52,704 nucleotides of DNA, from the NCBI GenBank assembly GCA_944368815.1, contig CALVXD010000005.1:1-52704 (forward strand), in the 5' to 3' direction. Shown in pieces: positions 12,441-38,733 of this stretch. How positions within the stretch are numbered: position 1 is the stretch's first letter; each line of letters begins with the position of its first letter. The stretch is from an uncultured Bacilli bacterium. Lineage in GTDB: Bacteria > Bacillota_I > Bacilli_A > RF39 > UBA660. Below the pieces are notes generated by a model, which ran no database searches, was not told the DNA's origin, and saw nothing but the letters and a program-made list of their open reading frames with translations. A program made the translations under genes and the position numbers.

Positions 12441-13325
12441 TTACAACAATTCATATTCCCTAGATAGTATCCTATCATCACTACAATATTCCATTATAAA
12501 TTTATTATCTTTTTTACAAATAATTATTCCTATAGTTTTATCTTGATGAATTTTTCTTAAATTATTATCTATATAATTCATATATATTTGTATTTGTTCT
12601 ATATATTCTTTCTTTAATTCGGTTATTTTTAGTTCTACTACAACATAGCAATTAAATTCTATATTATATAAAAGTAAATCTATATAATTATAACTATTGC
12701 CAACTTTAATTTTATATTCATTGCCAATATAACTAAAATTATTTCCTAATTCTAATAAAAAATTATCTATATCCTCTAATATTAATTGTTTTAATAACTT
12801 TTCTGATATTTCATTATAATTATAACTATTTTTTATTAATATTGGATTTTTTACAAAATCTTCTACTTTAAATTTGTCTTTTTTAATTATTTTATTTCTA
12901 GTATCTTTAGGTAATCTCTCATATTCTTGAGATTTTATTTTACTTCTTAAATCTCTTACATTTAAATTATTAATTTCACATTGATTAACATAATATACAA
13001 TTTTATCAATTTCTTTTATAGATAACATTTCATACCAATGACTCCATGTTAAATTTCCCGACATTGTCGGGACTTTTTCATATATATCATAAAACTGCTT
13101 TATTTTATATAAAAGAGATGGTTTATATTTTTTTCCTAACTCTAGTGTCAATTTCTTTGAATATTCCTTTATTATACCTTCGCCATAATGTTTCCCAGCT
13201 TCGGCAAGTATTTTACCTATATTATAATAAGTTTGTAAATCACTTTTATTTTTACTATAATCTTTTACTTTTTTTGTAATCTCATTATTTATAATTTGCT
13301 TTTTTATTTCATTGTAATAGTTCAT
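12441..13325 (-). CDS. PDDEXK nuclease domain protein, YhcG/DUF1016 family
   Basis: A 294-aa protein. The N-terminal half (about 1-130) is the helical DUF1016 N-domain, with YYNIGKILAEAG, YGEGIIKEYSKKL and SHWYEMLSI. The C-terminal half is a PD-(D/E)XK fold: GNEYKIKVGNSYNYIDLLLY supplies the acidic residue, followed by VVVELKI with the E-x-K, then QIQIYMNYI and KTIGIIICKK. Such proteins are predicted DNA nucleases often found in accessory and defence loci. Here the ATG overlaps the end of comEC by 17 bp, so it is translated with the DNA-uptake genes. No methylase or restriction partner is seen nearby. Confidence 0.85.
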   Translation of the reverse strand: MNYYNEIKKQIINNEITKKVKDYSKNKSDLQTYYNIGKILAEAGKHYGEGIIKEYSKKLTLELGKKYKPSLLYKIKQFYDIYEKVPTMSGNLTWSHWYEMLSIKEIDKIVYYVNQCEINNLNVRDLRSKIKSQEYERLPKDTRNKIIKKDKFKVEDFVKNPILIKNSYNYNEISEKLLKQLILEDIDNFLLELGNNFSYIGNEYKIKVGNSYNYIDLLLYNIEFNCYVVVELKITELKKEYIEQIQIYMNYIDNNLRKIHQDKTIGIIICKKDNKFIMEYCSDDRILSREYELL

Positions 13326-19593: not shown

Positions 19594-20892
19594 ATGAAAA
19601 GCAAATTTATTAAATCTACTATTATCTTAATAATTGGAGGCTTTATTACTAAAATACTTAGTATGGTAATTAGAATTGTTTTAACTAGAGTTGTATCTAC
19701 TGAAGGTATTGGACTATATATGTTAGTTCTACCTACCTTTAATTTATTTATAACTTTATCAACATTAGGTCTTCCTACTTCTATATCAAAACTTGTCAGT
19801 GAAAACACTAGAAGTAATAAAAAAATAGTATTATCTACTATTCCTATTACTTTAGTATTTAATATAATTTTAATGTTTATTTTATTTATAATTGCTCCAT
19901 TTTTATCAAAATATTTAATTAATAATACGGATACTTATTATCCTATTATGGCTATTGGATTAACTCTTCCTTTTATATGCTTATCAGGAATATTAAAAGG
20001 ATTTTTCTTTGGTAAAGAGAAAATGTTTCCCCATACTCTATCTAATATAGTAGAACAAATAGTAAGACTCTTATTAACTATATTCTTTATTCCTAGTTTA
20101 CTTAAATATGGACTAAATATTGCTATTACTGGTGTTGTATTAATTAATATAGTTAGTGAATTTGCTAGTTCCATTACTATGTTATTATTTATGCCTAAAC
20201 ACGTAAAAATTAATAAAGAAGACTTTAAATATAATAAATATATTGTTAAAGATTTACTTAGTATTAGTATCCCTACTACTTCATCAAGATTTATTGGATC
20301 TATTTCTTATTTTTTAGAGCCTATTATTTTATCATTTGTACTACTTAGTGTGGGATACTCTAACGAATATATTACTTTTGAATATGGGGTAATTAACGGT
20401 TATGTATTTCCTATTTTACTTCTCCCTTCATTTTTTACTATGGCTATATCTAATGCTCTACTTCCTGTTGTATCTAATTCTTACTATCATAGAAATTATA
20501 ATTATACTAAAAGTAAAATTAAACAAGCAATTATGTTTTCTTTATTAATAGGTATTCCTTGTACATTAATATTTATATTTATTCCCGAAGTACCTTTAAA
20601 ATTTATATATAATACTACTTTAGGCGTTAACTATATAAAAATAATCGCACCATTCTTTATTCTTCATTATATCCAAGCACCACTTACTTCAACATTACTT
20701 GCTATGGGTAAAGCAAAAGATGCCATGTATGGAACTTTAATTGGTAGTATTATTAGAACTATATTACTAGGAGTCATCTCTTACTTAAAAGTAGGAATAT
20801 GGGGACTTATTATTGCTTCTATATCTAATGTATTATTCGTAACAATTCACCATATTTATTATGTAAATAAGTATTTAAAAAAAGAATATTAA
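19594..20892 (+). CDS. SpoVB/MurJ-like polysaccharide flippase
   Basis: A 432-aa membrane protein with 12 or more hydrophobic segments, of the MOP/MviN superfamily (stage V sporulation protein B and RfbX-like flippases). Family stretches include [19 protein letters not shown] at the start, [14 protein letters not shown] [15 protein letters not shown] and [13 protein letters not shown]. It probably flips a lipid-linked cell-envelope precursor. The secDF-comN-spoVB neighbourhood supports the SpoVB branch, but a general MurJ or O-unit flippase is possible. SD GGTGAT; one of only three plus-strand genes. Its stop overlaps the glyS stop. Confidence 0.85.
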
Positions 20893-20907
20893 AATTCAAT
20901 ATTCTTT
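20875..20907. terminator. Bidirectional terminator shared by spoVB-like gene and glyS
   Basis: A 10-bp stem AAAGAATATT/AATATTCTTT (20881-20890, 20898-20907) with a 7-nt loop. On the minus strand it is followed by a long T-run; on plus the tail is CTTAT. Both convergent stop codons (20889-20892) fall inside it. Confidence 0.85.
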
Positions 20908-22262
20908 CTTATATATTCTTCTACTTCATCTAATTTTAAAGTAATTTGTTTCATAGTATCTCTTTCTCTTATAGTTACAGTTCCTTCATTTAATGTATTA
21001 TCGTCTATTGTTATACAATATGGAGTACCTATCATATCTTGTCTTCTATATCTTTTACCAATAGAGGCTGTTTCATCATAAGATACCATAAAATGTTTAG
21101 ATAGTTTCTTATATATTTCTTTAGCTTTTTCTGTATGAAATTTCTTAACTAAAGGAAGTACTGCTACTTTATATGGTGCTAGATATGGATGTATTTTTAA
21201 TACTTCTCTTTCACTTCCATCTTCCAAAGTTTCAACATTATATGCTTCACATAATACTGTTAAGAAGAGTCTTTCTAATCCTAAAGAAGGTTCTATTACG
21301 TAAGGAATATATTTTTCATTAGTTTCTGGGTCTAAATATTCTTGACTTACATTAGAGTACTTCTCGTGTTGTGATAAATCATAATTAGTTCTACTTGCTA
21401 TTCCCCATAGTTCTCCAAATCCAAATGGGAATAAATATTCAATATCAGTAGTAGCATTACTATAGAACGATAATTCTTCTTTAGAGTGATCTCTAAGTCT
21501 TAAATGTTCTTCACTAATACCTAGACTAATTAAGAAATTCTTACAATATTCTTTATAATGTTTAAACCAATCAAGTTCTGTACCTGGCTTACAGAAAAAT
21601 TCAAGTTCCATTTGTTCAAACTCTCTAACTCTAAATATAAAGTTTCCTGGTGTTATTTCATTTCTAAAACTTTTACCTACTTGAGCTATTCCAAAAGGCA
21701 CTTTTAATCTCATACTTCTTTGAACACTTAAAAAGTTAGCAAATATACCTTGAGCAGTTTCTGGTCTTAAATATATAGTACTTTTAGAGTCTTCTGTTAC
21801 TCCTTGAAATGTTTTAAACATTAAATTAAATTGTCTTATCTCAGTATAATCTAATTTACCACAATTAGGACATACTATATTATGTTCTTTTATGTAATTG
21901 ATTAATTCTTCATTAGACATACCACCGGCATCAATATGATCGTGTTCCTCAATTAATTTGTCCGCTCTATGTCTTGTTTTGCAATGCTTACAATCAATTA
22001 AAGGATCTGAAAAAGTAGTTAAATGTCCACTTGCTTCCCATACTTTTGGATTCATAAGTATTGCTGAATCAAGTCCTACATTATTTTCATCTTCTTGAAC
22101 AAATTTCTTTAACCAAGCATTTTTTAAATTGTTTTTAATAAGCATACCAATTGGTCCATAGTCCCAAGTATTAGATAATCCTCCATATATTTCACTTCCT
22201 TGAAATATAATTCCATTTTGCTTGCAATAACTAACAAGCTTATCCATAGTTAATTTTTCCAT
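20889..22262 (-). CDS. glyS: Glycyl-tRNA synthetase (single-chain, dimeric type)
   Basis: Charges tRNA-Gly. About 457 aa, class II, with [18 protein letters not shown] (motif region near residue 20), motif 2 region [21 protein letters not shown] and motif 3 SLGLERLFL, plus a C-terminal anticodon-binding domain ([25 protein letters not shown]). An insert with CKHC and CPNC could bind zinc. I chose the ATG at 22262, since the longer frame begins with a TTG inside the leader and the SD AAGGAAGGA is well placed for this ATG. Regulated by the T-box just upstream. Confidence 0.97.
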
Positions 22263-22270
22263 ATTATCAT

Positions 22271-22396
22271 CCTTCCTTATATACAAACAAAAAGATTCTT
22301 ACAATATAAGGACGACATACGCCGCGGTTCCACCTTATTTATTCATAAGAATCTCTTTATATATATAGCTCCGAGTTTCCAAGCTCATCTTCGCTT
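22271..22396 (-). promoter_or_regulatory. T-box leader of glyS with very short Stem I
   Basis: The T-box sequence AAGGTGGAACCGCG is at 22323-22336. The antiterminator pairs ATAAGG (22333-22338) with CCTTAT (about 22306-22311). A 9-bp helix AGATTCTTA/TAAGAATCT (22346-22354, 22293-22301) followed by TTTTTG could terminate. CCTTATAT (22304-22311) is also fully complementary to ATATAAGG (22275-22282), which runs into the SD, so translational sequestration is possible. Only about 55 nt separate the upstream stop from this domain, enough for a small hairpin (AGC, GAG/CUC, GCU) with GGA in its internal loop as possible specifier, not for a canonical Stem I. Confidence 0.85.
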
Positions 22397-28532: not shown

Positions 28533-28561
28533 ATTATATAGTAAATTATTGTAGTTGTCAA
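28533..28561 (-). promoter_or_regulatory. Perfect consensus promoter of infC-rpmI-rplT
   Basis: Minus-strand -35 TTGACA (28556-28561), 17-bp spacer, -10 TATAAT (28533-28538): an exact housekeeping-sigma consensus, the strongest in the window. Confidence 0.92.
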
Positions 28562-28641: not shown

Positions 28642-28845
28642 ATGTTTAATCGTTTTCTAGGCTTGTTAAGAATATATATTGGGTTTCGTCTTCTTTCTTT
28701 AATTGGATGTGTAGTTATATCTATTGTTTTAACATACCAATTAATTTTAACTCTTTTTATTCCTTGTTTTTATAATGTTATAATAGCATTAATATTATAT
28801 TTAATATTTTTATCTTTATTATGTTGGACTATTTTTGGTTATTAA
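28642..28845 (+). CDS. Possible small membrane protein, unknown
   Basis: A 67-aa plus-strand frame with SD AGGTGAT seven bases before the ATG. The product is strongly hydrophobic with two to three membrane segments (LLSLIGCVVISIVLTYQLIL, VIIALILYLIFLSLLC) and basic N-terminus (MFNRFLGLLR). Its end overlaps the ysxE-like gene by 17 bp tail to tail. The SD argues for a gene; lack of a recognised family and the AT-rich setting argue for caution. Confidence 0.5.
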   Translation: MFNRFLGLLRIYIGFRLLSLIGCVVISIVLTYQLILTLFIPCFYNVIIALILYLIFLSLLCWTIFGY

Positions 28846-29734
28846 TTTTATTATTATATCCCGCTATTAAAGCATCTGTTTTATAAATATAATCTAAAAC
28901 TTTACGATGTTTTTTACACAAATCATATTCTCTTTCATTAACTTCCATTTTCGGAGGAAGAGCCATGTATACAAATAAAAGCAATCTCTCATCTTCAGTT
29001 AATCTATATCTACTTTCGTACATTAGAAATAATTCACTAAAGTCAAAATCTAAATAATGATTTTTATAAAATATTAATAGATCATATATAGGACTATCAA
29101 TCTTACTTTTGTTCCAACTAATAAAATATGGTTTATCTTTTTTTAAATAATGGTCAATAGTTACATTATTATGAATATTGACTACACGCATTTTTTTCTT
29201 ATCCTTTATTTTTTCATACCATTTTTCTAAACTATAATGACAATAATTTAACATTCCATATATTTTTCCAATATTTCTTGCTATTAAATAGTCACTTGGT
29301 GACATATATATACTAGTTTCAATTACTGTTATTAAATCAGTATAATAATTATTTAAATAGTTTATTCTACCATCTAATTCTTCATATATTTCTTTATAAT
29401 AATCAAAGTCAACTTCTTTATAAAAAGTAGTTTTACTGTGTAAAAGTGTTAATAAGTTTATTATATCTACTGCTTTTTGTTCAATTGGTTCATTATAGTC
29501 TTCAATATACTCATACATTTCATACCCATCAGTTTCATCTATTTTTTCTGGATAATAATCAAACGCTCTTGATGTTAAATACTTATAAATATTATCTACA
29601 TTCCTATTATTACCTTTCTTTTTAAATACAAAAGACCCTTTTTCCGTATCTATTATTCTAACATTATTTTTAATTGTTAGCTTTTTTGGAACAAGGGCAT
29701 TTTTTTTAACTATACTTCTTATTTCTTTATCCAT
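28829..29734 (-). CDS. YsxE/CotS-like spore coat kinase-fold protein
   Basis: A 301-aa protein with an aminoglycoside-phosphotransferase-like layout: N-lobe NVRIIDTEKGSFVFKKKG, then ICSPSDY-like helical region and the would-be catalytic segment NIHNNVTIDHYL with YFISWNKSKIDSPIYDL. The usual H-x-D-x4-N and D-F-D are not conserved, so it may be catalytically dead, as I recall for YsxE. It follows the SpoVID-like gene with an 8-bp overlap, the same pairing as spoVID-ysxE in Bacillus. A coat role in sporulation is inferred. Confidence 0.7.
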   Translation of the reverse strand: MDKEIRSIVKKNALVPKKLTIKNNVRIIDTEKGSFVFKKKGNNRNVDNIYKYLTSRAFDYYPEKIDETDGYEMYEYIEDYNEPIEQKAVDIINLLTLLHSKTTFYKEVDFDYYKEIYEELDGRINYLNNYYTDLITVIETSIYMSPSDYLIARNIGKIYGMLNYCHYSLEKWYEKIKDKKKMRVVNIHNNVTIDHYLKKDKPYFISWNKSKIDSPIYDLLIFYKNHYLDFDFSELFLMYESRYRLTEDERLLLFVYMALPPKMEVNEREYDLCKKHRKVLDYIYKTDALIAGYNNKINNQK

Positions 29735-30476
29735 TAAGTGGTGTAGGAATAATTACTTTATCGCCTGGTTTTATATCACTAAGGTCGTTATAATCTGCTA
29801 AATCATCTTTACTTACATTGTATTTAGCCATAATTTTATCAATAGTATCATCTTCTTTTACAATGTAAACATGATATGTTGAATAAGTTTCACCACTATC
29901 TAAATTATCAAATAAACTATTTTTTATTTCCGAAACACTATCGTTAACATTATTATTAATGTTTACATTCTCCACATTAAGTTCAACTTCCTTTTCTTCT
30001 TCATTAGATTCTCTTACTTCTTCTTTTAACTCTTTTTCTTCTTTTTTATTATAAATAATACTATTTACAATTTCTGGTTCTTCTTCCTTTGTTATTTCTT
30101 TTACGTTTTCTTTAACTTCTTTTAAAGGCACTTCTTCTGCTTTAACTAAATCTCCTTCAATATATAAAGTAATTTTTACTTTTAATATGTCATTATTAAT
30201 AACACTATAATTAAAGTCATCAATATCTACTACCATATTATTTGTATCATATCTAGAATCTAACGCTATATCAAAGGGAATTGTATATTCAAATTTTTCA
30301 CGGTTGATACTTCCTTCAGTCATTTTATATTCTCCAGATATAATAAATTTACCTGTTATTAAATCATCAGCTTCCATTTTATAATTATGTTCAATTGATA
30401 TTGCGGTTATTTCACAAACTTTAGTTTTAAATACTAATTCTTTTTCAAATGGTATAATTTTTTTCATATAATCCAC
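29727..30476 (-). CDS. SpoVID-like LysM protein
   Basis: A 249-aa protein with a beta-rich N-terminal domain (about 5-130; LVFKTKVCEITAISIEH, LITGKFIISGEYKMTEG) resembling the SpoVID N-domain, a very acidic Glu/Lys linker (about 120-190), and a C-terminal LysM domain (about 202-247) YHVYIVKEDDTIDKIMAKYN. SpoVID localises the spore coat in Bacillus and has the same order of domains. No signal peptide, which fits a mother-cell protein. SD AAAGGGTGGA. The assignment rests on architecture and the downstream ysxE-like gene. Confidence 0.7.
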   Translation of the reverse strand: MDYMKKIIPFEKELVFKTKVCEITAISIEHNYKMEADDLITGKFIISGEYKMTEGSINREKFEYTIPFDIALDSRYDTNNMVVDIDDFNYSVINNDILKVKITLYIEGDLVKAEEVPLKEVKENVKEITKEEEPEIVNSIIYNKKEEKELKEEVRESNEEEKEVELNVENVNINNNVNDSVSEIKNSLFDNLDSGETYSTYHVYIVKEDDTIDKIMAKYNVSKDDLADYNDLSDIKPGDKVIIPTPLNG

Positions 30477-30497: not shown

Positions 30498-30521
30498 AAA
30501 AAAGAGTAATTAATATTACTC
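30498..30521 (-). terminator. Intrinsic terminator after addA
   Basis: Minus-strand 7-bp stem GAGTAAT/ATTACTC (30515-30521, 30504-30510), 4-nt loop and six T. The addA stop (30516-30518) is in the stem. Confidence 0.9.
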
Positions 30522-33500
30522 AATTTTTAAAATTACTGAATCTATAATAGAATATAAATATAAAGATACTGGTTTACCACTATTACTTCTTACAAATTCT
30601 TGGTAACCTTTTAACTGTAAAATATATTTATCATCATCAACATTCTTTAATTTATAATCAACAATATCAATATGATCATCATATTCTAACATTAAATCAA
30701 TTATACCATGATATTTAGTATCATCTTTAACATATATAAATTCATATTCTTTGTATATTTTAGCATCTTTAATATTTTTAAATAAATCACTATTTACTAA
30801 CTTATCTATTTTTTCTTGATAGAAATGATTATCTAGTTTAGTCATATTCTTAAAGTCTGTATTTTCTAATATTTCATGCATCTTTAAACCTAGTTCAATA
30901 TTATTTTTAGTTTCCACATCTATAAGTTCATGCATCTTTTTAGAAAAACTACTACTTTCTATTTCTATATTACTAATATTTATATTTTTAACATCCAATT
31001 TTGTATCAGTTCCTTCAATACTACTTTCAAAGTTACCTGACGCAATAATATTATAATCTTTAGACATTTTCAGTTTATCTAGTTCTACTTTAGCAATATA
31101 ACCATCAAGTCTATTTCTAATTGAATAGATTAAATCCCCAAGAGTACGATACTCTTCTTTTTTTTCATCTTTCAAAACTACTTCGTTATCCAAATCATCT
31201 ATATCTTTGTTAGGTAAAACTACTACCATTTTTTCTTTAGCACGAGTTACTGCAACATAAAAAAGTCTTATTTTTTCAGAAATTTCTTCTAATAAATAAT
31301 CATTTTTTAATAACGTTTTATATATTGTTTCACCAATTCCTTCATCAAAAAATGGTGTAACTATTCCTATTTTATTATTATATAAAATTTTTTCATTTAA
31401 TTCACCAAGATTAAATCTTTTATACATATTAGGAAAATAACAAACATGATATTCAAGCCCTTTTGATTTATGAATAGTCATTATTTTAACAGCATCTCCA
31501 AAATCATTATTTACCTGATACTTCATTGTATAATTTTCTTTAACTAATTTATCCAAGTGTTCTGAAAACATTCTTGGAGTATACCCTAACGTACCTAAAG
31601 AATTAGCCATATCTAATATTTTATCAATTTTAATTATACTAGTATCTATATTTCCTATTGTTATTAATTTTTCATAAAAGTCAAATTCTTTTATAATTAT
31701 GTTTAATAGTTCATTAACAGAAATATTATTAATCTTTTTACTTATTTCATAACTTTTCTTATATAACTCATTATCTTTAAAGTTATTATTTAAAAAGTAT
31801 TTAAAAATATTATCATCTGTCTCATTAATTATAAAACTACGCATCAGACTTACAAATAAATATTTGAATGTTGTATCATATTCGTGATTAGCTATTTTTA
31901 TAACAAATTTAAGTAAATTATTTAAAACATAAACATCCTTATCATTGTTCATTTTTTCTTCTTTCAAAATATTTAAAGGTATTTGTTTATATTCAAAAAT
32001 TTTCTTAAACAAATCAAAAGTAGAAGATCTATCTATTAATATCGCAAAATCACTATATTTTATATCTCTAAGAATAAGTTCATCTTTATCAAACACTTGA
32101 TAATGGGATTCTACTTTCTTTTTTATATCATCTGCAATTATAAAACATTCTATTTCTTCCATAGTAAATCCACTATCTTTATCATAATTGTATTCTAATA
32201 TATCTATATTATAGTTTTGATTAGTATTTCCTTCATTTATATAAGCATTATTTCCAAATACCATTTGATGTGTACTTATATAATCTGCTCCCCCAATTAA
32301 ATCACTCATAATTAAGTTAAACATCAAATTAACATTATCAAGTACTTCTCTTCTTGATCTAAAGTTTTTATTTAAGTCAATTTTAATACCACCATTATTT
32401 ACAGAATAATTATCATATTTATTTTTAAATATATTAGGGTTAGCATTTCTAAAACGATATATTGATTGTTTAATGTCCCCAACCATATAAACATTATTAT
32501 TAGATATATAACTTATAAATTCTTCCTGTAAATCATTAGTATCCTGATACTCATCTATCATTATTTCATTAAAACTATTTTTTACTTCTTCTCTAACTTC
32601 TGGAAACTCTCTTACTAATTTTATTGATAATAAAGCAATATCGTTAAACTCATACGCATCATTATCAAATTTAAATTCGTTTACTTTATCATCAAATTCT
32701 AAAATTATATCAATAATAGCTCTAATGTAATCTTTAGTAAGTAAAATAGTTTTTTTTATGTATTCGACATTTTCATATACACACATTTTCCCTAAATTCT
32801 TTATAATGTCACTAAGTTTTTCTTTAACTTTTTTACCTTCATCACTAGTTCCTTTAGGGATTCTAGGGATAGACACATTTAAGGAATCTTTTATTTCGTC
32901 ATAAGTATTGGCATTTAATAATTTATCTAATGATTCATATAGTTTATTCATATAGTCACTATCAAAATAACTAGATAATTCATTACATATTCCTTCTATT
33001 TTATCTCCTTCTTTTTTTATTAAATCTACATACTTATTAACATCTTCTTCTATTTTTTCTAAAATAAAATTTGTTTCTATATAATTAGATAAGTATTCTT
33101 TTTTGTTTGGTAGCATATCTAACTTATTACTTATTGCTAATATTTCTTTTTGAATATTTTTATCGTCTTTAACACAAAAATCATCTATTAAATGTAGAAA
33201 CAATTTATCTTCAATCAAATATTTATTTTCAAATATTTCATTCATTATTTCTTCTTTTTTTATAGTTATTATGGCTTCATCTATTATATTAACGTTAGGA
33301 GATATATTTAATAAATAATGATACTTTTTTACTATGGATAAAGCAAAACTATCAAATGTTGTTATATAAGAAGCATCTATCATATCGAGTTCTGAAAGCA
33401 AGTCTTCTTCTTTGGTTATTTTTTTTCTAATTCTTTGTTTCATTTCAGCGGCAGCAGCCTTAGTAAATGTTAAAAGTAATAGCTCATTAATATGTACTCC

Positions 33501-33629
33501 ACCTTTTAATTTACGAATAACTCTTTCACTTAAAACAGCAGTTTTTCCAGAACCTGCTCCCGCACTAACGATAATATTACTTCCTTCTTCGTTAATTGCT
33601 AAACTTTGTTCTTTTGTCCAACTAGGCAT
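30516..33629 (-). CDS. addA: ATP-dependent helicase/nuclease subunit A
   Basis: UvrD-type helicase with C-terminal nuclease; works with AddB to process double-strand breaks for RecA. About 1037 aa. Walker A AGAGSGKTAVL near residue 27, helicase motif II IDEYQDTND, motif III VGDIKQSIYRFR, TIHKSKGLEY and FYVAVTRAKEKM, then a PD-(D/E)XK nuclease (YHGIIDLMLEY, IVDYKLKN). I chose ATG 33629 because GGAGGTG lies just upstream; the GTG at 33638 is within that SD. It overlaps addB by 8 bp. Somewhat shorter than Bacillus AddA but complete. Confidence 0.95.
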   Translation of the reverse strand: MPSWTKEQSLAINEEGSNIIVSAGAGSGKTAVLSERVIRKLKGGVHINELLLLTFTKAAAAEMKQRIRKKITKEEDLLSELDMIDASYITTFDSFALSIVKKYHYLLNISPNVNIIDEAIITIKKEEIMNEIFENKYLIEDKLFLHLIDDFCVKDDKNIQKEILAISNKLDMLPNKKEYLSNYIETNFILEKIEEDVNKYVDLIKKEGDKIEGICNELSSYFDSDYMNKLYESLDKLLNANTYDEIKDSLNVSIPRIPKGTSDEGKKVKEKLSDIIKNLGKMCVYENVEYIKKTILLTKDYIRAIIDIILEFDDKVNEFKFDNDAYEFNDIALLSIKLVREFPEVREEVKNSFNEIMIDEYQDTNDLQEEFISYISNNNVYMVGDIKQSIYRFRNANPNIFKNKYDNYSVNNGGIKIDLNKNFRSRREVLDNVNLMFNLIMSDLIGGADYISTHQMVFGNNAYINEGNTNQNYNIDILEYNYDKDSGFTMEEIECFIIADDIKKKVESHYQVFDKDELILRDIKYSDFAILIDRSSTFDLFKKIFEYKQIPLNILKEEKMNNDKDVYVLNNLLKFVIKIANHEYDTTFKYLFVSLMRSFIINETDDNIFKYFLNNNFKDNELYKKSYEISKKINNISVNELLNIIIKEFDFYEKLITIGNIDTSIIKIDKILDMANSLGTLGYTPRMFSEHLDKLVKENYTMKYQVNNDFGDAVKIMTIHKSKGLEYHVCYFPNMYKRFNLGELNEKILYNNKIGIVTPFFDEGIGETIYKTLLKNDYLLEEISEKIRLFYVAVTRAKEKMVVVLPNKDIDDLDNEVVLKDEKKEEYRTLGDLIYSIRNRLDGYIAKVELDKLKMSKDYNIIASGNFESSIEGTDTKLDVKNINISNIEIESSSFSKKMHELIDVETKNNIELGLKMHEILENTDFKNMTKLDNHFYQEKIDKLVNSDLFKNIKDAKIYKEYEFIYVKDDTKYHGIIDLMLEYDDHIDIVDYKLKNVDDDKYILQLKGYQEFVRSNSGKPVSLYLYSIIDSVILKIE

Positions 33630-36003
33630 CAGTTTCACCTCCTAAAAATTCGGCATTCTTATATTCTTTTAATTCTACTATATCTTTTTGTTCCATATAA
33701 CATATATCATTAAAATTACAATATTTGCATCCAATGTTTTCTTTACCAATTTTTTTAGGATTTATATCAAATGAAACATCTAAAATATTATCTCTCGCTT
33801 CTTCTATTTTTTTATCAACTAAATTAATTAAACTATCAATTTGTTCATTATTAATAACTTTAGAATAACTATAAAATCCTGTTTTAGTCGTTTTTAAAGA
33901 TTTAATCATATTACTATTGTCATAACTATCATCAAGTTCTCTTAATATTTCTATATTATCGTTACTATAACCTTGAAGTTTTAACCCATCTTCTAACAAA
34001 CTAGTATATGTATGTTTATAATCTTTAACTATTTCTTTATTTAATATTTTTTGTAAATAAAATCCCGCTATTTCAACATTACTTATTTTCTCCATATTTT
34101 TACTTAAATATAAATATACAGGTAATTGAAGTCCTAATCCATAAATAGCATTATTAATATTAATATCAGGATTCCCCGTTTTATAATCAATAATACAAAC
34201 AATAGTATTATTACCTTTTTCTTCATATAATACTTTGTCGATTATGCCATTAAAAGTTACTTTTACTGTACCACTTTTATCTACACAAACTTTTTCTTCA
34301 TACATAGCTTTATTTAAGCTAGTATATTTATATTGTTTCTTTATTGTGTCAATAACAAACTTTAAATCTTCTTTTGCTTTTTTTATGAAATATAATTCCT
34401 TATTAGAAAACTCATATATTTGTTTCTCTAGAAAAGAATTATATTCATTATCTAAGTTAAATTCTTCTGTAAATGCTTTTGACAACACCTCATGAAATAA
34501 AGTACCTAAAATAGTCATAAATGTTTCTTCATAGGGATTTAATTTTAAAATATTATTTAAATAATATCTAAATCCACATTTAAAATAATTATCCATACTA
34601 GTATAAGACAATGACAATTCATTTTTTATGTATTTAGTAAATTCTTCTTTATCTATCTTTTTATATTCATTACTATATTCTAAATAATTTATATCTTTAT
34701 AATTATTATATAATAGTGATAAATCTTTATCTTTTACACCAAATTTTACTAATTTATCAATATTTGATGCTAATTTTATTTTATTTGCTTTATCAGAATA
34801 AGTATAAAATAAATTGTCTTCTTTTATTATTTCGAGTTTTAATTCATCGTTTAAATTAGAAATAGTATAACTTTCTGTGTTATTTGATAATTTATAAGTA
34901 ATTATTAAATTTTTAATATTATTTATTTTAGAAATAATATATTCTTTTTCCATTTTATTTTTAATTGTAGAAGTTGTTAAACCTAACCCTAATTTTAATT
35001 TATCACTTAAATATTCTTCATCTTTGTATATTGTTGGAATACTACCATAGTTAAATCCTAATATAAAAATATAATTATCATCATCCACTTCATTATCAAA
35101 ACTAATTAATTTAACACTATTTTTAAGTTCTTTTGTCTTTATATTAGTATTTTTTATATCATGAATAATTAATTCTTTTACTTCCGATAAGTTGTTTGCC
35201 CATACATATTTATTACAAATATTTATTATTTTATTAATGATATCAACATTATCTTCGTTATTATCGAATTTATTTTTAATATTATCAAAGACACTATCAT
35301 CATTGATATTTTCTAAAAAATAATTACCTATTTCTGTGCTATAAATACTTCCCTCACTAGGTAACGATACAGGTATATTATAAATTTCTGAATATCTTTT
35401 CATTATTCCATAATAGTCATTAGTAAGTCCCATTATTTTTATATTATTTATATCTATACCTTTATTTATTAAATCCGCAATATGCTCAAACACATACTCT
35501 ACTTCTTCTTTAATTGTCTTAAATTCATATATATTTTTATGTTTATACTTTGGTTCTAATATAGAAACGACATTTATATCATCACTTAATTTTTCTAACA
35601 TTCTTTTGTCAAAGTCGCTAATAAAATGATATCCATATACAATAATTTTCTTATTTTTATATTCATTATATAGACTAGTAACATTTAATTTATTATCTAC
35701 TATTTCTTTTTGGATATCTAATAATTTTGTTACTTTTTGGTCTTTAACTTCACTACCCTTAACATAAACAATATTATCTAAATATATTTTAGCAACATCA
35801 TATTTTATATTATATTTATTCATTAAATAAAATATTGCCTTTTCATCATAATCAAATATAACTTTTCTTCTTAATTCTTCTAATGAAATATATTTAATAT
35901 TTATAAGAGGCTTTTCTTTTGTTACCGTAGTTATTACTTCTTCTTTAATACTATTCGGAATAACTAAAACAGTATCATCTTCAACATAGTCTAGATAACT
36001 CAC
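33622..36003 (-). CDS. addB: AddB-like PD-(D/E)XK nuclease, short form without Walker A
   Basis: At 793 aa it is far shorter than the roughly 1160 aa of Bacillus AddB. The C-terminal nuclease is intact: GTLFHEVLSKAF, FNGIIDKVLYEE, CIIDYKTGNP and the iron-sulphur cysteines (FKCGFRYYL around residue 480, then IGCKYCNFNDICYM near 770). The N-terminus starts DDTVLVIPNSIKEEV and no G-x-G-K-S/T ATP loop is visible. The family's helicase-like core is therefore degenerate or reduced. Start GTG, SD GGTGAT, with the GTGA overlapping the stop of the antitoxin gene upstream. Confidence 0.9.
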   Translation of the reverse strand: MSYLDYVEDDTVLVIPNSIKEEVITTVTKEKPLINIKYISLEELRRKVIFDYDEKAIFYLMNKYNIKYDVAKIYLDNIVYVKGSEVKDQKVTKLLDIQKEIVDNKLNVTSLYNEYKNKKIIVYGYHFISDFDKRMLEKLSDDINVVSILEPKYKHKNIYEFKTIKEEVEYVFEHIADLINKGIDINNIKIMGLTNDYYGIMKRYSEIYNIPVSLPSEGSIYSTEIGNYFLENINDDSVFDNIKNKFDNNEDNVDIINKIINICNKYVWANNLSEVKELIIHDIKNTNIKTKELKNSVKLISFDNEVDDDNYIFILGFNYGSIPTIYKDEEYLSDKLKLGLGLTTSTIKNKMEKEYIISKINNIKNLIITYKLSNNTESYTISNLNDELKLEIIKEDNLFYTYSDKANKIKLASNIDKLVKFGVKDKDLSLLYNNYKDINYLEYSNEYKKIDKEEFTKYIKNELSLSYTSMDNYFKCGFRYYLNNILKLNPYEETFMTILGTLFHEVLSKAFTEEFNLDNEYNSFLEKQIYEFSNKELYFIKKAKEDLKFVIDTIKKQYKYTSLNKAMYEEKVCVDKSGTVKVTFNGIIDKVLYEEKGNNTIVCIIDYKTGNPDININNAIYGLGLQLPVYLYLSKNMEKISNVEIAGFYLQKILNKEIVKDYKHTYTSLLEDGLKLQGYSNDNIEILRELDDSYDNSNMIKSLKTTKTGFYSYSKVINNEQIDSLINLVDKKIEEARDNILDVSFDINPKKIGKENIGCKYCNFNDICYMEQKDIVELKEYKNAEFLGGETDA

Positions 36004-37007
36004 TTATTATCACCATCCATAATTTCTTTAAATATTGAACTAGCATATTTAGATATATCAGATACATCTTTCATTTTATATTTCTTACCTATATTGGTAA
36101 AATAATCTTTCATAGTTTCAGTATCAATAATATTTGATGAATACTCTTCTTCACTTAATTCTTTTCTTCCTGCTTCCCATGGAATAGTAGTATGTGTCAT
36201 TTTCTCTAATGTTTTACCACTGTAAACACCAAAATTGTTTATAACCGAATCTATTAATTTAAGTTCTTTTTCATTTAAAGAATCTATCTCGTTGTAACTT
36301 TCAAATTCATTTTTAGAAATAGGATTATATCTATAATAACTAAACCTATCATAAATTTCTCGATATACAGGTCCATGCACCCAAGCTTCAGCATTATCAT
36401 TAAATATAGGTTTATCAAAGAAATAAGTAGAAAATCCCTGAATATAATATAATATTTTTTGAAGAGCAAGTGGCGTTATATCTTCCATCTTCGCAATAAT
36501 ATGCTTAGATATTAAATATATTTTAGATTGATCTTCTGTTAATTTAAGTTCCATAATTTTACCAAGCGTCTTCTTATATGCTACTTTTGTTATTAAATCT
36601 TTATTTTTTTCTAAATATTCATATAAAGTATTAGGATCTTCTAACACTTTTTTTAATATATCGGAATACGCTTTTTCTGGAGTACTTCCTTCTAAATATC
36701 TAATAATTGTTACTTCTCCCCACCCCAAAACTAGAGAAAGTGGTTTTTTCCCTATTGCATATTTATTTAATATTTCTTCTATCTCTTTAATCGTAATAAT
36801 TCCATTAATTTCTTTAACTTTTTCCGAATATTCTAACATGTTTTGATCATATAATTTCTCAACATAAACTTCATTATTACATTTTTTACAAATAGCATAC
36901 AGTTCATTAAATGATACTATTTTATTATTAATCATTTCTTCTCTTATTCTTTTTTTTATTTTATATTCCACTATTTCATTACATATTTCACAAAAAGTTT
37001 TACTCAC
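36000..37007 (-). CDS. MqsA-like zinc-finger / Panacea (DUF4065) antitoxin
   Basis: 335 aa. N-terminus: CEIC and CKKC zinc pairs (about residues 6-42) as in MqsA/YgiT. Middle: an HTH region (about 70-115) with KKPLSLVLGWGEVTIIRYLEG, the MqsA-type Xre fold. C-terminus: a Panacea/SocA-like (DUF4065) domain (about 170-310) with TPLALQKILYYIQGF, AEAWVHGPVYREIY and the late TTIPWEAGR. Panacea domains are known antitoxin modules that neutralise varied toxins. It lies 13 bp after the toxin-like gene. Start is GTG; stop TGA overlaps the addB GTG. Expected to bind the toxin and its own promoter. Confidence 0.85.
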   Translation of the reverse strand: MSKTFCEICNEIVEYKIKKRIREEMINNKIVSFNELYAICKKCNNEVYVEKLYDQNMLEYSEKVKEINGIITIKEIEEILNKYAIGKKPLSLVLGWGEVTIIRYLEGSTPEKAYSDILKKVLEDPNTLYEYLEKNKDLITKVAYKKTLGKIMELKLTEDQSKIYLISKHIIAKMEDITPLALQKILYYIQGFSTYFFDKPIFNDNAEAWVHGPVYREIYDRFSYYRYNPISKNEFESYNEIDSLNEKELKLIDSVINNFGVYSGKTLEKMTHTTIPWEAGRKELSEEEYSSNIIDTETMKDYFTNIGKKYKMKDVSDISKYASSIFKEIMDGDNK

Positions 37008-37020
37008 TTATATCATCTCC

Positions 37021-37413
37021 CTATATAAACATATATTCTAAATTATGAAGTGCTTCATGAAATGAAACAACAATCGCTGTCCTCTTGACTTCAATATAAT
37101 TAATTTTCAAATATACTTGCATATCTTGTCTTTGGCCTTTTAAATCTATAAGTTTAAGTTTTGGGGCAAATACATATAATTTTTCTTTTTCATATCCTGG
37201 ATGTTCATTTGAAAGTACCAACGAAAAATCTTCTACTGTAAGTTTATTTATAATATTCTTAAGTATCTTACTATTTATAGCATAATTCTTACAAAATTCT
37301 AAATTCTTTCCACGATTAGATAAAACAAGATATCCATTAGTAGTGATATTCTTTTTTATCTTTTGTAAAAGTATTTCTACTTCTTCTTTTGTTACTTCAC
37401 ATACTAAATTCAA
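37021..37413 (-). CDS. MqsR-like toxin partner
   Basis: About 130 aa. The pattern of an N-terminal helix (VEILLQKIKKNI), a middle LTVEDFSLVLSNEHPG, and a beta C-half LYVFAPKLKL then VYLKINYI and AIVVSFHEA resembles MqsR-family mRNA interferases, which carry a final I-S-F-H-like strand. Similarity is remote and the catalytic residues are not assured. The start is likely TTG at 37413, with GGGAG eight bases upstream; a GTG at 37422 is the alternative. First gene of the unit, just after a strong promoter, and followed by an MqsA-type antitoxin, which is the strongest argument. Confidence 0.68.
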   Translation of the reverse strand: MNLVCEVTKEEVEILLQKIKKNITTNGYLVLSNRGKNLEFCKNYAINSKILKNIINKLTVEDFSLVLSNEHPGYEKEKLYVFAPKLKLIDLKGQRQDMQVYLKINYIEVKRTAIVVSFHEALHNLEYMFI

Positions 37414-37437
37414 GAATATCACTCCCTATCTGTATTC

Positions 37438-37466
37438 ATTATAACACGTACAAATATTCACGTCAA
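37438..37466 (-). promoter_or_regulatory. Promoter of the toxin-antitoxin-addBA unit
   Basis: Minus-strand -35 TTGACG (37461-37466), 17-bp spacer, extended -10 TGTTATAAT (hexamer 37438-37443). ACGTGAATATTTGTACGT in the spacer has partial dyad symmetry (ACGTG/TACGT) and could be an antitoxin operator. Confidence 0.82.
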
Positions 37467-37467
37467 T

Positions 37468-37497
37468 AAAAAATAGTATCATTTGACACTATTTTTT
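37468..37497 (-). terminator. Intrinsic terminator after the YnbB-type gene
   Basis: Minus-strand 13-bp stem (37485-37497 with 37468-37480, one G-U pair), 4-nt loop. The six T at the base of the stem are its 3' arm; ATTGACG of the next promoter follows at once. The stop codon (37489-37491) lies in the stem. Confidence 0.85.
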
Positions 37498-38733
37498 ATT
37501 ATATAAATTATTAAGTATATTCATAACCGCAATCTTTCCATATTCATATGTTAAACTTCCTTGTTGATATGCTATATAAGGGCTTCTAATTGGTCCATCA
37601 CAAGATAATTCTATAGAACTTCCTTGAGTAAAAGTCCCTGCAGCCATAATAACTTTATCAGTATATCCCGGCATATCCCAAGGTTCAGGGACAACATAAG
37701 AGTCAACTGGACTAGATTCTTGGATACTTTCTACATATTTAATTAATTTATCTTTATCGTTAAATATAATATTTTGAACTATATCAGCTCTTTCTTCATT
37801 ATATTTAGGTTCTACTTCATATCCTTCTTTTTCCATTACATAACTAGTAAGTATTGCTGTTTTAAGAGCATTGGCTACTACACTTGGAGCCATATATAAC
37901 CCTTGCAACAATTGTTTATTCATACCTAAAGATGGGCCTACTTCTTTTGCTTCACCAGGAAGATTTAATCTTTCACTTGCAAGATATATTAAGTCTTTTC
38001 TACCTACAATGTAAGCACCATTCGGAGCAATTCCGCCACCTAAATTTTTAATTAAAGAACCTACTACTATATCTGCTCCTACTTCTATCGGCTCTTTTTT
38101 AGACACAAATTCACAATAACAGTTATCAATCATTATAATTACATCTTTATCAATATTTTTTATAAATTTAATTACTTTTTCCACTTTATCTATACAAATA
38201 CTTTTTCTAGTAGAATATCCCTTACTTCTTTGAATTTCAATTACTTTAATTTTATTTTTTCTAAGACATTTTTCAATAGCATCATAATCAAAGTCATCAT
38301 TTACTAAATCTATTTGTTTATAATCTATATTAAAACTTTTTAAAGAACTATTATTTTCTACTATTCCAATTACTTCGTCTAATGTATCATAAGGTTTCCC
38401 TGTTATACTAAGAAACGTATCTCCAGGTCTTAATAATGCAAACAAACAAACTGTTAAAGCATGAGAACCTGATATAAATTGACTTCTTACAAGTGCATCT
38501 TCTGCTTTAAATATATCTGCATATATTTTTTCTATTATGTCTCTTCCTTCATCATTATAACCATACCCTGTTGTACTATTAAAATGGTTTTCACTAAGTT
38601 TATTTTTGTTAAATGAGATTAGCACTTTTAAACTATTAAATTCTGCTATTTTATCTACTTTTTTTAATTCATCTGTAATCTCTTCTTCACATTTTTTTAC
38701 ATATTTATAAGTTTCTTCACTAATTTTTAACAT
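37489..38733 (-). CDS. Methionine gamma-lyase family / YnbB-type PLP enzyme
   Basis: 414 aa, fold-type I PLP enzyme of the family often annotated as aluminium resistance protein or methionine gamma-lyase-like. Motifs: STTGYGYNDEGRD, RSQFISGSHALTVCLFALLRPGD, the PLP lysine in GSLIKNLGGGIAPNGAYIVG, and GPSLGMNKQLLQGL. The in vivo substrate is not established for this family, so only the cofactor class is firm. It overlaps the upstream gene by 7 bp. Confidence 0.85.
   Translation of the reverse strand: MLKISEETYKYVKKCEEEITDELKKVDKIAEFNSLKVLISFNKNKLSENHFNSTTGYGYNDEGRDIIEKIYADIFKAEDALVRSQFISGSHALTVCLFALLRPGDTFLSITGKPYDTLDEVIGIVENNSSLKSFNIDYKQIDLVNDDFDYDAIEKCLRKNKIKVIEIQRSKGYSTRKSICIDKVEKVIKFIKNIDKDVIIMIDNCYCEFVSKKEPIEVGADIVVGSLIKNLGGGIAPNGAYIVGRKDLIYLASERLNLPGEAKEVGPSLGMNKQLLQGLYMAPSVVANALKTAILTSYVMEKEGYEVEPKYNEERADIVQNIIFNDKDKLIKYVESIQESSPVDSYVVPEPWDMPGYTDKVIMAAGTFTQGSSIELSCDGPIRSPYIAYQQGSLTYEYGKIAVMNILNNLYNKK

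Follow-up and report, generated by a model that had tools for sequence, protein, structure and literature searches.

The closest described relatives of the locus studied here are the MqsR:PanA toxin-antitoxin pairs of Bacillus fungorum and L. rossiae (PMC10440598). Their toxins are of the MqsR type, and the B. fungorum antitoxin carries a zinc-binding domain (ZBD), a helix-turn-helix (HTH) and a Panacea domain in the same order that models and motifs indicate here. The authors who validated these pairs propose a sensory role for Panacea and name no trigger (PMC10440598). In E. coli, MqsA represses the promoter ahead of mqsR (PMC6918082). A pair of this kind is found on the minus strand of a 52,704-nucleotide stretch of DNA (contig CALVXD010000005.1 of assembly GCA_944368815.1; hereafter, the window) from an uncultured Bacilli bacterium, where it precedes addB and addA, which encode the AddAB nuclease. 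Such a pair is of an ordinary type; what is unusual is that it heads an addBA unit bounded by hairpins, a placement conserved in the genus. On balance, we favor a reading in which the predicted antitoxin, PanA, sets the levels of both toxin and AddAB from this four-gene unit.

The toxin-like gene (37021..37413, minus strand, as are the other features of the unit) encodes 130 aa with a modelled MqsR fold and begins with TTG behind GGGAGTGAT. Next comes panA, the predicted antitoxin gene (36000..37007; 335 aa; GTG start), whose product combines a four-cysteine ZBD, an HTH and Panacea. Its TGA stop overlaps the GTG start of addB as GTGA (36000..36003). The short addB (33622..36003; 793 aa; GTG start) encodes a PD-(D/E)XK nuclease and overlaps addA in turn, as ATGCCTAG. 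Counted from the ATG at 33629, which lies behind AGGAGGTGA, addA (30516..33629) specifies a 1037-aa UvrD-type helicase with a C-terminal nuclease motif; an in-frame GTG is also present at 33638.

The junction between panA and addB has a recognizable structure. The C-terminal end of PanA, MDGDNK, is 6-8 columns longer than in seven compared relatives (of 40), and its codons contain GGTGAT, the Shine-Dalgarno sequence of addB itself, 5 nt ahead of the addB start. The same GGTGAT precedes the start in some addB leaders that lack the pair (L015, L021 and L031). It thus seems that fusion of panA to addB took place via the leader of an addB gene, whose ribosome site was retained. This arrangement allows coupled as well as independent initiation of addB translation. 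All five pair-bearing genomes have the 4-nt overlap, which reads GTGA in four and ATGA in G001.

A promoter-like sequence, TTGACG-17-TATAAT with an extended -10 (TGTTATAAT; 37438..37466), matches at 11/12 positions and lies 24 nt ahead of the toxin start. By motif alone, such a site is not significant in A/T-rich DNA. The window holds four sites of at least 11/12 at spacing 17 on both strands, where 20 dinucleotide shuffles average 2.2, and 103 sites of at least 9/12 are observed in 28.4-39.6 kb versus 109.8 expected. Support for the shared promoter comes instead from conservation: both hexamers persist in each of the five pair-bearing genomes, even in G005, where the spacer is widely different. 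Just before this promoter, a terminator-like hairpin and U-run (37468..37493; -7.9 kcal/mol) overlaps the end of the upstream neighbor, a Met-gamma-lyase gene (37489-38733, minus strand). A second hairpin with a U-run (30498..30521) overlaps the addA stop. Each is found in 5/5 pair-bearing genomes, neither was listed by a terminator scan requiring three G-C pairs, and by eye no hairpin is seen at the matching addA-spoVID junction of two congeners without the pair. With terminator-like sites on both flanks, the unit would therefore consist of exactly four genes, and toxin, panA, addB and addA are likely to form one transcript. The initial annotation had proposed such a transcript, and the gene order, overlap and promoter on which it was based are confirmed by the coordinates; the two hairpins are an addition to it.

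The toxin gene and panA occur in five of seven genomes of the genus, always in the order toxin-panA-addB-addA, so that the order sought in relatives is not unique to one genome. The other two carry neither gene and display an empty site, in which the Met-gamma-lyase gene ends ~20 nt ahead of addB. Conservation of both the order and the 4-nt overlap in 5/7 genomes means that the arrangement exceeds chance. When 60 genomes were searched for the toxin (the window's own included), matches were found only in these five. The ratios of nonsynonymous to synonymous substitution rates (dN/dS) were calculated with our own Nei-Gojobori script for the 10 pairs that can be drawn from the five genomes. They are 0.065-0.153 for the toxin gene and 0.068-0.105 for panA, at dS values up to ~0.5, and 0.126-0.210 for addB, 0.079-0.121 for addA and 0.085-0.139 for the Met-gamma-lyase gene. 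The toxin gene and panA are under purifying selection and are held as firmly as their housekeeping neighbor.

These results bear on the possibility that the pair was inserted by chance between the Met-gamma-lyase gene and addB, with addBA driven by read-through or by an internal promoter and functionally unconnected to the pair. Many genomes of the family have a Panacea match (65/291, 60 of them over the cut-off), relatives of the pair reside at other sites (three plasmids and 10 loci of the class) and there are promoter-like sites inside panA. However, a chance neighbor would not be expected to keep a four-gene order and a 4-nt overlap in 5/5 genomes at dS up to ~0.5 or to hold the addB Shine-Dalgarno within its codons, and the upstream hairpin would cut off read-through. 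We regard this explanation as distinctly unlikely.

The addBA genes of the pair-bearing clade probably have a history of their own. Their AddB proteins are 57-60% identical to those of genus g67 versus 45-47% to those of congeners, and for AddA the values are 64-66% versus 56-57%. Trees of 30 genomes, with AddB omitted for G075, G073 and G133, group the pair-bearing addBA with the other genus (G208 and G302), with support from the Shimodaira-Hasegawa-like approximate likelihood ratio test (SH-aLRT) of 99 for AddA, 99 for AddB and 100 for the joined proteins. In a comparison conceived after the identities were seen, the approximately unbiased (AU) test rejects a single genus clade for AddB (p 0.0007) and for AddA+AddB (p 0.00018); for AddA alone there is no rejection (p 0.164). 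Other genes precede addB in the two g67 genomes examined. From these sequence comparisons, addBA was likely exchanged into the slot between the Met-gamma-lyase gene and spoVID, with or before the pair, a reading that leans on the supplied genus assignment. Two reference trees were tried and dropped. SecDF was found in only 18/30 genomes (not in G208, G302 or G075), and GlyS has likely been exchanged itself. The GlyS protein of the clade (window 20889-22286) shares 81% identity with its counterpart in G109 (genus g101) and 64% with the one in congener G003, such that this gene also seems to have moved between lineages.

Exchange of this sort would be compatible with simple addiction, in which the pair keeps the addBA locus from being lost or replaced and does not regulate it to any meaningful degree. 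The apparent transfer between lineages (SH-aLRT 99-100, and the two AU rejections above) favors this view, as does the intact state of the toxin gene and panA at dS up to ~0.5. However, the AU test on AddA alone gives no rejection, the overlap and the double hairpins exceed what addiction needs, and elsewhere in the family addBA is maintained where the pair is absent. An addB gene was matched in 222/291 family genomes, and where a Panacea gene and addB could both be placed (35 genomes), they are adjacent in three, all of this genus, and on other contigs in 32. This count excludes, from the 65 Panacea-bearing genomes, 16 with an unplaced addB and 14 without an addB match; the table was joined by hand, and in draft genomes another contig is not proof of distance. 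Addiction alone is an unlikely explanation for the unit.

The identity of the toxin-like protein is supported by its structural model, which on a second look with VIA-align has an MqsR (RelE-like) fold and bears out the earlier description of the protein as MqsR-like. Y101 and K103, invariant in 51/51 toxin rows, are at most candidate catalytic residues. The catalytic residues of E. coli MqsR are a Tyr and a Lys. For the B. fungorum toxin, the catalytic residue is Tyr97 (PMC10440598). By analogy with MqsRA and MqsR:PanA, the 130-aa protein would be an RNase that cuts mRNA. Depletion of GCT target sites was considered as a further mark and dropped, since counts in the four genes are near mononucleotide expectation.

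PanA was initially described as an MqsA/Panacea antitoxin, and both parts can be recognized. Foldseek matches the protein to MqsA (3gn5, E 1.1e-4), and the Panacea domain (PF13274) scores 82.6 bits versus a cut-off of 25.7; the narrower SocA equivalog falls short, at 55.4 of 190. The four cysteines of the ZBD (C6, C9, C40 and C43) are invariant in 41/41 rows, and an HTH domain is present. We therefore treat PanA as a predicted antitoxin and repressor, with both neutralization and repression drawn from MqsRA and MqsR:PanA (PMC10440598, PMC6918082).

The two nuclease subunits are recognizable as AddAB from helicase motifs in AddA and nuclease motifs in both proteins. AddA matches UvrD-helicase at 182.1 bits and has the motifs AGAGSGKT, DEYQD and, in its C-terminal nuclease, VDYK. 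AddB matches PDDEXK_1 at 85.6 bits and has DYKT at 606 and cysteines at 476, 759, 762 and 768. Both miss the TIGR equivalog cut-offs (AddA, 446.6 of 707.65; AddB, 99.3 of 903.7). Judging by sequence, the enzyme is short and divergent, and its size is typical of the family, where addB open frames span ~760-830 codons.

The mechanism that we favor starts from what the sequences show (gene order and overlaps, flanking hairpins, conserved promoter hexamers, purifying selection, the empty site in two congeners) and from folds predicted by models and motifs. The ZBD of PanA would neutralize the RNase toxin, as in MqsRA and MqsR:PanA elsewhere, and its HTH would repress the shared promoter. If PanA does repress, addBA would be under antitoxin control because the upstream hairpin would stop read-through from the Met-gamma-lyase gene. 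The Panacea domain would sense some cue, possibly infection or DNA stress, upon which PanA would release both targets. The MqsR-like toxin would then cleave mRNA at the same time as derepression of the promoter raises AddAB, so that linear DNA is degraded and breaks are repaired. In such a case the toxin-antitoxin module would have captured addBA as output genes, and cells that lose all four genes might in addition be penalized through addiction. The full form of this proposal is tentative and, on present evidence, doubtful. In it, a single Panacea sensor-repressor frees the RNase toxin and induces AddAB through one shared promoter, giving a two-tier response that stops translation, shreds foreign DNA and repairs the cell's own breaks.

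Several observations weigh against this explanation. Besides its own Shine-Dalgarno, addB has six promoter-like sites (9-10 of 12 matches) within the preceding 400 nt, so that addBA may not depend strictly on the shared promoter. In E. coli, two promoters specific to mqsA lie within mqsR (PMC6918082). An operator search at the promoter found only a short perfect inverted repeat, GAATA-N14-TATTC, which may be due to chance. The toxin scores 15.8 against Pfam MqsR, below the cut-off of 26.2, and within alignment A1 just 9 of the 15 sequences reach that model at E <=1. MqsR is not listed by PDB sequence searches with P0001, A1 and A2, and Foldseek gives the toxin no significant match and no MqsR among the best 50 rows. 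The PanA partner of Herbaspirillum frisingense MqsR gave no relief of toxicity in E. coli (PMC8832971). Finally, linkage of the pair to addBA is confined to one genus among the genomes and records searched.

That last point is drawn from a wider survey. The toxin family was found in 12/395 genomes of the class, and 10 of the 11 loci outside the window adjoin a PanA-type gene or a fragment of one. Queries with the AddB and AddA of the window and six further AddA proteins detected no addA or addB around these 11 loci, within stretches of at most ~9 kb a side that are limited by contig ends (one contig measures 5 kb, and some of the L155 sequence is N). Three plasmid records carry a distant toxin with a SocA-domain neighbor, and no addA or addB is annotated within 6 kb. 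Upstream DNA inspected by eye at the 11 distant loci has a hairpin right before the promoter region in two (L154 and L062), a hint that the module may take an insulator along when it moves.

The initial annotation had raised guarding as a possible reading, in which loss or inhibition of the unit would free the toxin; applied to AddAB, this would be a form of abortive infection. Precedents exist, in that one retron guards RecBCD, and Ec48 and Se72 are retrons that phage inhibitors of RecBCD can set off (PMC8791490, PMC12409349). The pair is also genetically tied to addBA. However, panA lies upstream of addBA and its synthesis is independent of AddAB. Therefore, an AddAB-binding phage inhibitor or loss of addBA only would leave toxin and antitoxin synthesis unchanged. 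No sequence feature indicates that PanA or the toxin contacts or senses AddAB, and the class loci around which addA and addB went undetected argue against any general tie. Guarding is accordingly very improbable as the function of the unit, and an active guard, with PanA touching AddAB, finds no support.

A phage origin of the pair was also considered and rejected. A tblastn search of 50,697 phage records with the toxin gave nothing at E 0.01, and no toxin relative was confirmed in a scan of viral contigs in which only close relatives are detectable. PHROGs does contain relatives of both pair proteins (phrog_34059, E 5.5e-15; phrog_10390, E 7.5e-58).

Some loci vary around the pair. In two relatives, G002 and G001, an extra gene with an HExxH motif (HETMH and HETVH; L054 8060-9000, 277 aa, and L056 3818-4760) lies between the Met-gamma-lyase gene and the toxin promoter; it is absent from the window. 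In G005 the same gap (L057 8617-9001) is ~380 nt without a long open reading frame and, by eye, may form a long, 6S-like hairpin; compared with Rfam, this leader matches no family at the gathering score. In G196 (L073 851-3491), two genes that by eye resemble the protein at window 12441-13325 directly precede a short MqsR-like gene and one of PanA type. A class relative of the toxin gene at L161 (G588:C1:1970241-1971851) is in two pieces ~1.2 kb apart, as if interrupted. In the window, the minus-strand series that begins with the Met-gamma-lyase gene continues after addA with SpoVID-like (LysM) and YsxE-like spore-coat genes (28829-30476), in a genome of ~1.27 Mb. Beyond them, a 12/12 promoter lies ahead of infC (28533-28561), and the leader there may be structured.

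A natural joining of a Panacea module to AddAB would suggest that the cue is damaged DNA or linear DNA entering the cell. If true, it would also exemplify a core repair enzyme brought under the promoter of a toxin-antitoxin module, and so would inform the question of a selfish, protective or regulatory role for chromosomal modules. Among the titles and abstract openings of the open-literature matches listed, no toxin-antitoxin unit with AddAB is described.

Known systems resemble parts of this arrangement. In E. coli mqsRA, the solved MqsA (3hi2, 3gn5; 132 residues) lacks Panacea, and no addAB accompanies the module (PMC6918082). Unlike that module, with its promoters inside mqsR, the toxin gene here contains no site of at least 10/12 on the same strand in the 28.4-39.6 kb promoter scan. 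The title of PMC10783111, a paper that names MqsR 71 times, links an MqsR module to restriction-modification, and so resembles the present case as a toxin-antitoxin system acting with DNA-degrading anti-phage defence; its accessible text describes no unit containing AddAB. Retrons Ec48 and Se72 are similar in that a growth-arresting element is tied to a nuclease of the RecBCD/AddAB type (PMC8791490, PMC12409349). They respond to the loss of RecBCD function, whereas the tie here is a shared gene unit. The MqsR:PanA pairs are closest, and as described they consist of two genes (PMC10440598). In the window, the pair shares its hairpin-bounded unit with addB and addA downstream, and the end of panA overlaps the addB start.
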